Assembly: GCA_022567135.1 (NCBI GenBank)
Contig: JADFHP010000005.1
Coordinates: forward strand, 1-44,005
DNA from: Chloroflexota bacterium
GTDB lineage: Bacteria; Chloroflexota; Dehalococcoidia; Lucifugimonadales; Lucifugimonadaceae
DNA: 44,005 bases
Direction: 5' to 3'
The notes below the pieces were generated by a model. It did no database searches. It worked only from the letters and a program-made list of their open reading frames with translations, and was not told the DNA's origin. A program made the position numbers and the translations under genes. Positions 36,240 to 41,189 of this stretch are shown piece by piece. How positions within the stretch are numbered: the stretch's first letter is position 1; every line of letters starts with the position of its first letter.

Positions 36240-36908
36240 CTACCCCTCAGCTTCAACTAGCCGCCTGATGCCGTCGAGAACATCGAAGAAATCTTCAAAC
36301 GGGGTGAACGCTATCCCCGCGCGCCTGCAATGCTGCGCCAGAGAACGGCGGGCGAACACCACGTCCGACTGCGCGGCTACACAGAAATCGGATAGCCCGT
36401 CGCCGACGTAGATCACCGTCGTACCCGCCTCCTGGCGCGGCCGGACCCGGTCGCACTTGCAGATGCCGTTGATCTCACAGCGCGTCGCGCCGGGTGAGAG
36501 GCCATAAGTGGCGAACTCACCGCCATCGAAGTTGGCACTCGCCGATGTGAACGGAATTTCCCCGAAACCCTGCCGCTTCAAGATTGCCCTGATGTAGAAC
36601 GACCAGCCGCTCGAAGCGATCTCAACCGGAATCTCGTTTGCGGCCGCATATTCGACAAGCTCTCTCAGTCCCGGCCTGATCTCCGCCTCATCGGCCGCGC
36701 GCTCTCTCATCTCCTTCGCCCTGGCTGCCGGCAGGAAACCCACCTCCCAACGGTGAAGCTCCATCGAGTTGAACTCGCCTGAACGGTACTTTTCGATGCC
36801 CTCTTCCCAGCCGGGCGCGCCGAACTCGGTGATCACCGCGAGCCCCATGTCGTCGCAAGTGATCGTGCCGTCGAAATCGATTACGACCGCGTATTTTTGC
36901 AAGTTCAT
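36240..36908 (-). CDS. HAD-superfamily phosphatase (MtnX-like)
   Basis: This 222-residue HAD-IB enzyme has motif I VVIDFDGTITCDD with nucleophile and acid Asp, motif II IASSGWSFY, and motif III/IV VIYVGDGLSDFCVA. It resembles MtnX, the 2-hydroxy-3-keto-5-methylthiopentenyl-1-phosphate phosphatase of methionine salvage, and related phosphoserine-phosphatase-like enzymes. A CxC (CKCDRV) follows the NG segment. No methionine salvage neighbours are present, so the substrate is uncertain. ATG 36908 has GGAG directly adjacent. TTG 36902 would place GGAG 6 nt upstream and still keep the whole domain. Confidence 0.85.
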   Translation of the reverse strand: MNLQKYAVVIDFDGTITCDDMGLAVITEFGAPGWEEGIEKYRSGEFNSMELHRWEVGFLPAARAKEMRERAADEAEIRPGLRELVEYAAANEIPVEIASSGWSFYIRAILKRQGFGEIPFTSASANFDGGEFATYGLSPGATRCEINGICKCDRVRPRQEAGTTVIYVGDGLSDFCVAAQSDVVFARRSLAQHCRRAGIAFTPFEDFFDVLDGIRRLVEAEG

Positions 36909-36985: not shown

Positions 36986-37014
36986 TTGCCGTGAGACCAT
37001 GAAATTGTTATAAT
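36986..37014 (+). promoter_or_regulatory. Sigma70-type promoter of nusA-ylxR-infB
   Basis: TTGCCG (36986-36991) and a perfect TATAAT (37009-37014) are separated by 17 bp. Transcription would begin near 37021. A terminator-like hairpin begins only about 22 nt later. Confidence 0.75.
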
Positions 37015-37042
37015 TTATGGCAATCTGGAGGTAGTGCTGAAG

Positions 37043-37065
37043 AAGTGGGTGCAGCCCACTTTTTT
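37043..37065 (+). terminator. Terminator-like hairpin in the nusA leader
   Basis: AAGTGGG (37043-37049) pairs perfectly with CCCACTT (37055-37061) around TGCAG, followed by TTTT(T). It lies between the promoter and the nusA start at 37121. No plus-strand gene ends nearby (the HAD gene points away), so this looks like a leader attenuator or a 5' stabilising hairpin. Confidence 0.75.
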
Positions 37066-37120
37066 GTTTGTTGGCGTATTCTCGAATCGCCAGTCGAATT
37101 CGCCAAGAGGGCAATCGTTA

Positions 37121-38818
37121 ATGAAAAGTGACCTGCTGCTCGCAGTAACTCAACTGGCCGCGGAAAGGAACCTTCCCGCGAGCGTAGTTGTGTCTGCAGT
37201 TCAAGATGCCCTCACGATGGCGTACAAGCGCGACCCAATTGCCGGCGGCGAGGACGTACTCGTCTCCCTGGACGCCGAGACCGGCGATGTAACCATACAT
37301 ACCGTCCGCAACGTGGTCGAAGAAGTCGAAGACCCCGACGCAGAGTGGACGCTGGAAGAAGCACAGAAGGTAGACGCCAACGCCCAGATCGGCGATCAGA
37401 TCAAAACAGGCCTCATCGAAGAGAACCCCGGCCGAATCGCCGCCCAGACGGCCAAGCAGCTTGTCATGCAGAGGCTCCGCGACGCCGAACGAGAACTCGT
37501 CTACGATGAGTACGTAGGGAAAGAGGGCGAAGTCGTTACCGCTACGATTCAGCGCATGGACCCGCGGTTCATCACGCTGGACCTCGGCAGGGCCGAAGCG
37601 GTCATGCCCCCGACAGAGCAGGTACAGCGCGAGCGCTACCGCCCCGGCATGCGCCTGAAGATCTACATATCAGAGGTCCGGCGCACTGCGCGCGGCCCTG
37701 AGATCGTCGCCTCACGCACGCACATTGAGCTGCTGCGGCGGCTATTCGAAACAGAAGTGCCCGAAATATTCAATGGTGTAGTCGAGATCAAGGCCATCGC
37801 CCGGGAGCCCGGCGCGCGCAGCAAGGTTGCCGTCTCATCCAACCAGGAAGGCGTCGACCCGGTCGGCGCCTGCGTCGGCCTGCGGGGCATTCGCATCCAG
37901 AACGTCGTCAACGAGCTGATGGGCGAAAAAATTGACGTTGTCGAGTGGAGCGATAACCCGACCGTTCTGATCTCCAGCTCCCTGAGCCCCGCCCAGGTCG
38001 ACAAGGTCATACTTGACCCTGAGGAGCAGAACGCGACCGTCATCGTCCCTGACCGCCAGCTTTCACTCGCGATCGGCAGAGAAGGCCAGAACGCCCGTCT
38101 TGCGGCCAAGCTCACCGGATGGTCGATAGACATCAAGAGCACCCTCGATGGCGCGCCCACTACAGTGACCACCGAGGACAAGCCTGATGCGGAAGCCGTG
38201 GCAGCGGCCCCTGCCGAGGCCCCTGCGGCTACAGAAGAGGCTGATGTAGCGGCCATAGCAGCCGAAACCGAACCGGCTGCCCCGGAAGAGACTAAAGAGG
38301 AGACCAAAGAAGAGGCCGAAGCGGATATCGCAGCGGAAGTCGAAACCGCTGGCGAACCTGAAGTCGCGGCAGATGACGCCGCCTCAGAAGCTGTCGCCAG
38401 AGCCGAAGAGATCGTTGAAGCGGCGGCAGCAAAGTCTGCCGACGCGGTCTCTGCAGAAGAAGAACTCGCACTGGCAGCGCTGGAAGAAGAACTTCGGGCG
38501 CTAGAGGCGCAGGAGAAGATCGATCAAGAGCGGCGCGAGGCAGAACTTGCAGCTTCAGCCGCATCGGTCGACTCGGAAGAGATCTGGCAGGTCGGCGGCG
38601 CCGGAACGAGTGACTCAGGCGGCGGGCTGCGATTCGCAGAGGACATCCTGGAATATCGGGACATGTCTTCGGGCAGGCGCAGTCGGCGCGGACGCGGCGG
38701 CAACAACCTGAGCCCCAAGGCGAGACGCGCAGCCGCTCGCAAAAAGTCCGCCTCGACAAACGACTCCTCGGGAAGCAGCTCCTCGGGAAGCAGCTCCTCT
38801 GGAAGCAGCTCCACTTAA
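37121..38818 (+). CDS. nusA: Transcription termination/antitermination factor NusA with acidic tail
   Basis: NusA binds RNA polymerase and modulates pausing and termination. The N-terminal domain is at 1-127 and the S1 domain at about 135-198. KH1 has [18 protein letters not shown] at about 249-266, and KH2 has [14 protein letters not shown] at about 318-331. After residue 345 a 220-residue low-complexity tail follows: Ala/Glu-rich, then a basic patch ([10 protein letters not shown]), ending in Ser/Gly repeats. ATG 37121 is chosen because the family starts at MKSDLLLAV, with AGAGGG 9 nt upstream; a frame open to 37034 contains the leader hairpin. No rimP gene precedes it. Total 565 residues. 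Confidence 0.95.
38768..38815 (+). repeat. 15-bp tandem repeats at the 3' end of nusA
   Basis: The unit TCCTCGGGAAGCAGC occurs three times (the last with a TCT variant) and encodes SSGSS repeats at the NusA C-terminus. Such arrays change length easily by slippage, so length may vary between strains. Confidence 0.85.
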
Positions 38819-38887: not shown

Positions 38888-39184
38888 ATCCGGCCCAGGC
38901 ACATCCCGGTACGAACATGTGTGACCTGCCGGTCGAGAAGGCCGCAATCTGAATTCGTGCGGCTGGTCAGGGGCAAAGAGGGCGGAATTCTTATCTCGCC
39001 TCCCCGCGATGTGCCCGGCAGAGGCGTCTACCTTTGCCGGGATCAGAAATGCTGGGTTGAAGGGATAGAAAAGGGTAGGATTGCCCGCGCGATCCGCAGT
39101 TCGGTGGCTGCTAAAGACGCGGCTGCGATCATCGCCTGGGCGAGGAACTCCCTTGGCAGTCCGGACAGCGACACCGCAAAGTAG
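38888..39184 (+). CDS. ylxR: YlxR-family RNA-binding protein with probable AUC start
   Basis: YlxR (DUF448) is a small protein usually between nusA and infB and linked to RNA or polymerase functions. From ATC 38888 it has 98 residues: RPRHIPVRTCVTCRSRRPQ and EFVRLVRG match the family's conserved RTCxxCR start and following strand. GRGVYLCRDQKCW is the second conserved region. A perfect GGAGG (38875-38879) sits 8 nt before ATC 38888. The frame is closed by TGA at 38864, and the only standard start, GTG 38921, would remove the conserved RTC. The noncanonical start is inference. Confidence 0.8.
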   Translation: MRPRHIPVRTCVTCRSRRPQSEFVRLVRGKEGGILISPPRDVPGRGVYLCRDQKCWVEGIEKGRIARAIRSSVAAKDAAAIIAWARNSLGSPDSDTAK

Positions 39185-39317: not shown

Positions 39318-41189
39318 ATGCCGAGACGACGGCAGCCCGGGGCACGACGCCGCAATATGCAGCGACGCGGTCCGCGCAGGCGAAGAGACCGGGCGCAACA
39401 AGCTGCGGTAGCCATCGTAGAGCGGCCTGATGGGCCAATCGAGCTACCCGCGCTCGTGACCGTGGGAGAGCTTTCGGAAATCTTGAAGATCTCCCACGTC
39501 GACGCGGTCAAAGCGGTTTTGCGTCTCGGCATTATGGCGACGGTCAACGAAGAGATCGACTTTCAGACCGCGGCGAAGGTCGCGGACGCCTTCGACGTAC
39601 AGGTCCGCCGCCCCCGCGAGAAGGAAGAGAGCGAAGCCAGCAGACGCGCCGCGCAGGACGAGGCGGAAGCCAGAGAGGACGAAAACGCCGTCACCCGGCC
39701 ACCCATCGTCACGATTCTGGGCCACGTCGACCACGGCAAGACCACCCTGCTGGACGCCATCCGGGGCACACGGGTTGTCGAGAGCGAGGCCGGCGGCATC
39801 ACCCAGGGCATCGGCGCCTACCAGGCGACATACAACGACAACCTGATCACATTCATCGACACCCCGGGCCATGCCGCGTTCACCGCCATGAGGGCTCGCG
39901 GAGCCCAGGCGACTGATATTGCGATTCTTCTGGTCGCCGTGAATGACGGCGTGCTGCCACAGACGATCGAGGCGATCGAGCACGCGAAGGCGGCAGGCGT
40001 CCCCATCATCGTCGCACTGAACAAGATCGATCTGCCCGGAGCAGATGTCGAGCGAACGAAGGCCCAACTGGCAGAGCACGACATCATCGTCGAGTCATAC
40101 GGTGGTGACGTCGTCTCCGTCGAGGTTTCGGCCCTGCAAAAATTAGGCATAGATGACCTGCTCGATAGCATCTTGCTGGTGGGTGAGGTGGAGGGCTTCT
40201 CCGCCAATCCGGACAAGCCCGCGGCCGGCGTGACGATCGAGTCCCGTATCGACTCGAAGCGCGGGCCGCTTGCCACCATCATCATCAGATCCGGAACAGT
40301 ACGGGTGGGCGACAACGTGGTTGTCGGTACCACCCGCGGCCGAATCCGAAACATGTCAGACGGGTTCGGAAAAGATGTCAGAGAAGCGGGGCCGTCGACT
40401 CCCATCCAGATCATGGGACTCAGTGAACTGCCGGAGCCGGGCGATAGTTTCGACGTCGTCGAAAACGAAAAAACAGCCAGGCAACTGGTAACCACGCGCA
40501 AAAGAATCGGCTCCGGCCGGGATCAGTCCCGCCGGCCGAGCACCATGGCAGAAGTCATGCGGGCCCGTGCGGGCGGCGAGGCCCAGGACCTGAACCTGGT
40601 CATAAAGACCGGGAGCCAGGGCGCTATTGACGCAGTACGTCGAGCCCTTGATCCGCTATCAAATGACGATGTCCAGGTAAGCATCGTCAGTATCGGCACG
40701 GGCGTGATCAACGAGACAGACGTGATGCTTGCCGCCGCTTCAGGCGCCATCGTTTTCGGATTTGAGACGTTCGCTCAGCCGGGAGCGGTCAGACAGGCAA
40801 GCACACATGGCGTAGAGATACGCACATACGACATCATTTATCAGCTGATCGACGATGTTGAGAGCACCGTCGAGGGCCTCATAGCTCCCGAAGAGCGTGA
40901 AGTGGTCCTGGGACGCGCTATCGTCCAGCAGGTGTTCTCGGCAGGCCGCCGGGACAAAGCAGGCGGAATCAGAGTCACCGATGGATTCTTCTCACGCACC
41001 GCCAGCATTCGAGTGCTGCGCAACGGCGAAGAGGTCCATTCCGGACGTATCGCCTCTCTGCGCCGCTTCAAAGAGGACGTACGGGACGTGCAGACCGGAT
41101 TCGAAGGCGGCGTGACCCTTCAGGGCTTCAACGACTTTGAAGTCGACGACATCCTGGAGTGCTTCGAGGTCCAGGAGTTCCAGCGCTAG
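39318..41189 (+). CDS. infB: Translation initiation factor IF-2 (short form)
   Basis: IF-2 is a GTPase that places initiator tRNA on the ribosome. GTPase motifs are GHVDHGKTT (135-143), DTPGH (181-185) and NKID (235-238). Conserved parts of domains II-IV include [35 protein letters not shown] and FEVQEFQ. The N-terminus is short: an Arg-rich stretch (1-25) and one IF2-N-like domain ([16 protein letters not shown]). That gives 623 residues against 800-900 in many bacteria. ATG 39318 has AGGAG close upstream. A terminator follows, and no rbfA or truB is present. Confidence 0.96.

Follow-up and report, generated by a model that had tools for sequence, protein, structure and literature searches.

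A conserved promoter-proximal terminator before nusA in rimP-less Chloroflexota, a probable NusA-fed attenuator of the nusA-rnpM-infB operon

Introduction

Does NusA limit its own synthesis in bacteria whose nusA operon lacks rimP, and through which element? The question is raised by a short stem-loop that lies between a promoter and nusA in the window, the whole 44,005-nucleotide stretch of Chloroflexota DNA analysed here. The rimP gene is a widespread ribosome maturation gene. The general rimP-leader, described as the most ubiquitous transcription attenuator, precedes the rimP-nusA-infB operon; it comprises a stem with a GGGc...gCCC core and a U run, has no antiterminator, and has been described in Firmicutes and Gammaproteobacteria (PMC2965389). 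Naville & Gautheret (2010) left open whether the control is exerted by RimP or by NusA, and named NusA as the best candidate (PMC2965389). According to a 2025 review, NusA of B. subtilis controls its own synthesis by stimulating termination in its 5′ leader (PMC12288461). In S. agalactiae the rimP-nusA-infB operon has a termination site 31 nt downstream of its start site, and NusA feedback has been proposed (PMC4448216), and E. coli NusA is said to regulate its own operon (PMC6511841). The class of mechanism is already known.

Results

The element heads three genes on the + strand. The first, nusA (37121–38818), was identified with TIGR01953 (E = 1.5e-119), and its ATG matches the nusA start of relatives. 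It is followed by rnpM/ylxR (38921–39184), matched by NF047356 with an E value of 1.5e-11 and 44.2 bits, below the curated cut-off of 80, and by infB, which encodes IF-2 (39318–41189; TIGR00487, E = 1e-199). The source genome is a 2.6-Mb assembly of 190 contigs, 83% complete. Among GTDB genomes, the named records closest to it by NusA belong to Chloroflexi, Dehalococcoidia and SAR202, which places the window in Chloroflexota and probably in Dehalococcoidia.

Read along the + strand from 36986 to 37121, the leader consists of TTGCCG, 17 nt, TATAAT, about 28 nt, AAGTGGG-TGCAG-CCCACTT, TTTTGTTTGTT, 49 nt and the nusA ATG. A consensus scan recognised the first hexamer as −35-like (36986–36991), at a 17-nt spacing from TATAAT. 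Together with the sequence itself, it revealed an extended −10 element, TGtTATAAT (37006–37014), in which TATAAT occupies 37009–37014 and the TG (37006–37007) stands one base ahead. From the −10 position, transcription is predicted to start at 37020–37022. The terminator stem-loop (37043–37061), recognised by its fold, its conservation and compensatory changes, has arms at 37043–37049 and 37055–37061 that form 7 bp, with a T50–G54 wobble as the eighth pair. The T-rich tract TTTTTTGTTTGTT (37060–37072), read from the sequence and its alignment with relatives, is interrupted by one G after six T, as it is in many of the aligned relatives. The stem ends 59 nt before the ATG; in relatives this distance has a median of 47 and ranges from 13 to 249 nt. 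A preliminary description of this DNA had reported a perfect TATAAT promoter and a 7-bp stem with a T run ahead of nusA, and both stand, the promoter being TG-extended and conserved and the downstream gene being nusA by TIGR01953. The gap of about 22 nt that it gave between them is right if counted from the predicted start (~21 nt); the distance from the end of the −10 element is ~28 nt.

The hairpin fold reaches 12 pairs when the A and T flanks are used, and positions 37039–37066 fold with −14.8 kcal/mol. Against shuffles, z is −4.7 for the 28-nt hairpin piece, a piece that was chosen, and −1.7 for the 46-nt leader. The leader fold shows no antiterminator. Judging from the positions of the predicted start and stem, an RNA ending at the hairpin would be ~45 nt long, and once released it may have a role in trans. 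A 14-kb scan of a single genome returned 2 promoter-like sites against 3.3 expected from shuffles and 10 terminator-like sites against 11.8; within one genome alone, the promoter–hairpin pair is not beyond chance. We judge the pair to be real because it is conserved across relatives.

NusA was located in 59 of 60 related genomes, and the leaders upstream were then read. Of 58 order-level leaders searched for hairpins with no motif requirement, every one but L052 yielded a GYGGG-type stem with T's behind it. L052 carries an unrelated hairpin, GGCCCCGATACTTCGGGGC, in that position and keeps a promoter and a terminator-like form; one further leader (L026) carries a variant 3′ arm, GCTCAC. Among 57 order leaders, 41 have a TG-extended −10 element and 49 match TATAAT in at least five of six positions. 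In a set covering the phylum and 80 named records, the strict motif lies within 350 nt of nusA at 192 of 208 loci, mostly from Chloroflexota. Several of the 16 motif-less loci have rimP in between (L156–L158, L217, L222, L199, L227), and others have a variant hairpin (L133, L146, L153). Of 191 leaders, 169 have a −10 box matching at least 5/6 at 12–85 nt ahead of the stem, against 59.5 expected from mononucleotide shuffles, and 60 have a 6/6 box, against 10.3; the median distance from −10 to stem is 30 nt. The preliminary description had proposed looking for the same promoter–hairpin pair upstream of nusA in relatives, and held that the lack of a conserved hairpin would speak against its reading. 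The pair proved to be conserved throughout the order and in much of the phylum.

This conservation bears on whether the hairpin belongs to a different unit, either as the 3′ terminator of an upstream gene or as a stand-alone small RNA gene. Inspection did reveal a + strand reading frame upstream in some relatives. In the window, however, the adjacent upstream ORF (36240–36908) lies on the − strand and encodes an MtnX-like HAD phosphatase (TIGR01489, above the cut-off), and because this nearest gene is divergent, the hairpin is not the end of a neighbouring + strand gene. A promoter intervenes between the upstream gene and the hairpin in most relatives, and the link of the motif to nusA argues against both versions. 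We rejected the upstream-gene terminator on gene orientation and the intervening promoter, and regard this pair of explanations as very improbable.

The same order-level leaders were informative about translation-coupled attenuation through a leader peptide. In the window a GTG at 37034 stands behind GGAGG and opens a frame (37034–37120) that continues in frame into nusA with 29 extra codons, and in the sister species L003 a frame of 26 codons begins with an ATG and ends at a stop. Only 14 of 57 order leaders, however, have a start with a purine-rich site, just two of them an ATG, and lengths and frames vary from one leader to another. Lacking conservation across these 57 leaders, the leader peptide was rejected, and we find attenuation of this kind scarcely credible.

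Within the hairpin, the 7-bp stem is paired in all 462 of 462 cells of an alignment of 66 diverse leaders. Compensatory changes occur at three stem pairs (A-U to C-G and G-C; U-A to C-G), above shuffled and slid controls. These leaders were picked by a pattern containing GGG...CCC, so that the invariance of GGG/CCC in this set is partly built in; in the order, the motif-free hairpin search gives the same near-fixed letters. The A-A-G lower stem and the U-A pair covary, while the G-U-G-G-G letters barely change. Since these letters are nearly fixed while the lower stem covaries, the sequence, besides the pairing, seems to be under selection.

The near-fixed letters are relevant to constitutive attenuation, in which the terminator would fix the fraction of read-through to nusA-infB with no feedback. 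A hairpin that is stable by itself (−14.8 kcal/mol) in a leader fold with no visible antiterminator fits such a device. A fixed setting, however, would need neither near-fixed stem letters nor a near-fixed position across the phylum, and for this operon B. subtilis is reported to use NusA feedback. We therefore consider constitutive attenuation unlikely.

The element is largely specific for the nusA leader. The strict pattern AAGYGGG(3-8)CCCRCTT-N-TTT gave 31 matches in 60 genomes, all at the nusA leader except G010:C25; one of the nusA-leader matches, in G001, is the same hairpin read on the opposite strand. A covariance model scored the nusA-leader site of the source genome at 42.9 bits, with the runner-up at 30.5, and gave its top score to the nusA leader in nearly all of the 60 genomes. 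Across the phylum it matched in 183 of 301 genomes, a count from which strict filters lose weak matches. Nine loci with extra model matches were inspected and set aside as ordinary gene-end terminators, a Dehalococcoides-like repeated element, or the nusA leader itself. A conserved element, AAAGCGGGGGAGACCCCGCTTTTTTGCTTTTTTAGGG, recurs in Dehalococcoides-like genomes at sites away from nusA (L241, L242, L244, L246), twice in G064. An Rfam search of the window gave no match at the gathering threshold and only implausible ones at E values up to 10. RF01770, the Gammaproteobacteria rimP leader, had no match in the window at either setting, while the E. coli control matched with 102 bits.

We compared the hairpin with the known leaders of this operon. 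It shares with the general rimP-leader a G-rich 5′ arm, a C-rich 3′ arm, a GGG...CCC core, a U run, the lack of a visible antiterminator and a position at the head of a nusA-infB operon. Its stem, AGTGGGt-gca-gCCCACT, has the G-rich and C-rich arms of the GGGc...gCCC type, a T stretch follows right after the stem, and the 59 nt to the first gene fall within the 4 to 130 nt of the general leader. The c-g pair next to GGG/CCC in the general leader is U-G in the window, while many relatives have GGGC...GCCC. Whereas the general leader precedes rimP, the hairpin of the window stands directly before nusA, in an operon that has the nusA-infB part and lacks rimP. This makes it an attenuator of that design at the head of a rimP-less operon, outside the strict definition of the rimP leader. 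The earlier statement that nusA autoregulation in other bacteria runs through different leaders was wrong, the hairpin sharing the design of the general rimP-leader (PMC2965389).

The leader of B. subtilis is likewise a 5′-leader terminator of the same operon with the same proposed logic. It extends ~180 nt before ylxS/rimP (PMC2965389), compared with ~100 nt before nusA in the window, and its NusA autoregulation was shown by experiment, whereas in the window it is proposed from sequence and analogy. S. agalactiae also has a promoter-proximal terminator, with short and long transcripts from one start in RNA-seq. There rimP is the first gene and the evidence is RNA-seq, whereas the operon of the window is rimP-less and known from its sequence alone. 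The E. coli element resembles the window in its second hairpin, CTGGGC-TTTA-GGCCC with a T run, before rimP; RF01770, to which the window is unmatched, models the longer enterobacterial tandem structure.

The absence of rimP was assessed with domain searches whose controls were positive in 10 known genomes. Neither RimP_N (PF02576) nor RimP_C (PF17384) had a match in the source genome or in 60 relatives, so that rimP is lacking throughout the order as sampled. Across the phylum, RimP_N was present in 39 of 301 genomes and absent from 262, and among the matches listed none belongs to the class of the source. The argument is one of presence and absence in incomplete assemblies; rimP is missing in all 32 high-quality relatives, which assembly gaps do not account for. 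Other phyla have operons that begin with rimP (L217, L222, L199, L227), and there the hairpin stands upstream of that gene, whose identity was confirmed by Pfam at L217, L222 and L199. At L217 and L222 it is found 560–590 nt before nusA, upstream of rimP, and L199 is arranged likewise. As the hairpin precedes rimP elsewhere and nusA here, its place is at the operon's head regardless of which gene comes first. A sensor must exist wherever the leader exists, and the absence of rimP therefore excludes RimP as the sensor in rimP-less genomes. A hairpin that follows the operon points to NusA rather than RimP as the sensor. A phylum mostly without rimP, yet with the leader, is a natural experiment that separates RimP from NusA control.

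Some Chloroflexota do carry rimP, and for these we compared the rimP loci (L060–L089) and the NusA alignment by family (f55, f45, f58 and f78). In f55, a promoter and a GGGGCC-GTC/GCG-GGCCC-U run hairpin precede rimP in four of the five loci read, L066 having no such hairpin before rimP, and the NusA N-terminal domain is full-length. In f45, f58 and f78, almost no terminator-like hairpin occurs in the 420 nt before rimP, and the N-terminal domain is ~25 residues shorter (52–56 vs 77–83 residues between two anchors). Loss of the leader alongside a shortened N-terminal domain is expected if the leader works through NusA. In these three families rimP also lies close behind a gene with a SecF-like C-terminus, recognised by eye, and the leader may have been lost through operon fusion instead of a change in NusA. 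The three families may represent one event or a shared ancestor.

The family comparison also bears on the idea that something other than NusA reads the GTGGG/CCCAC stem, be it RnpM/YlxR, IF-2, a ribosomal protein, or NusG at the T-rich tract. The conservation of the stem letters beyond pairing suits such a reader, rnpM and infB belong to the operon here, and NusG of B. subtilis works at TTNTTT motifs (PMC12288461). Where the NusA N-terminal domain is shortened, however, the leader is lacking, and we consider another reader improbable.

Discussion

We propose that the promoter-proximal intrinsic terminator is probably an attenuator of the nusA-rnpM-infB operon, set in a self-limiting loop fed by NusA. 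RNA polymerase would start near 37021 and reach the hairpin after ~20 nt. There NusA would raise termination, and when NusA is scarce the polymerase would read through into nusA. The net effect would be negative feedback by NusA on nusA-rnpM-infB, that is, a homeostat. That termination takes place in the cell at the predicted hairpin is what we infer from the leader. Of the mechanisms considered, feedback by NusA has the best support, since a leader of this design is reported to act in that way in B. subtilis, and dependence on NusA in this lineage is presumed by that analogy. The NusA autoregulation suggested in the preliminary description is thus supported by the conserved leader and the B. 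subtilis precedent (PMC12288461).

Some observations weigh against this mechanism. NusA is most important at weak hairpins and interrupted U tracts (PMC12288461), and given this preference, the strong-looking hairpin and U run of the window count against a role for NusA. The near-fixed GTGGG/CCCAC letters, furthermore, are unexplained by hairpin stimulation alone, which counts against a simple feedback model. Tentatively, and as something possible rather than probable, the observations may be read jointly: loss of rimP would have left an ancient attenuator before nusA, the attenuator and the NusA N-terminal domain would coevolve, and lineages with a shortened domain would have dropped the hairpin. 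The GTGGG stem would then be a sequence-specific recognition element for NusA, or for NusA with RNA polymerase, and not merely a hairpin.

Relative to the literature compared, including the main text of PMC2965389, the phylum-wide occurrence of the leader before nusA in rimP-less Chloroflexota and its correlation with the NusA N-terminal domain are new; Chloroflexota nusA leaders may already be listed in the supplements of that paper. The locus sets apart stem letters fixed to a degree that pairing does not explain, and a link to the NusA N-terminal domain that can be tested. A phylum that has the leader but mostly lacks rimP bears on the choice between RimP and NusA left by Naville & Gautheret, and points to NusA.
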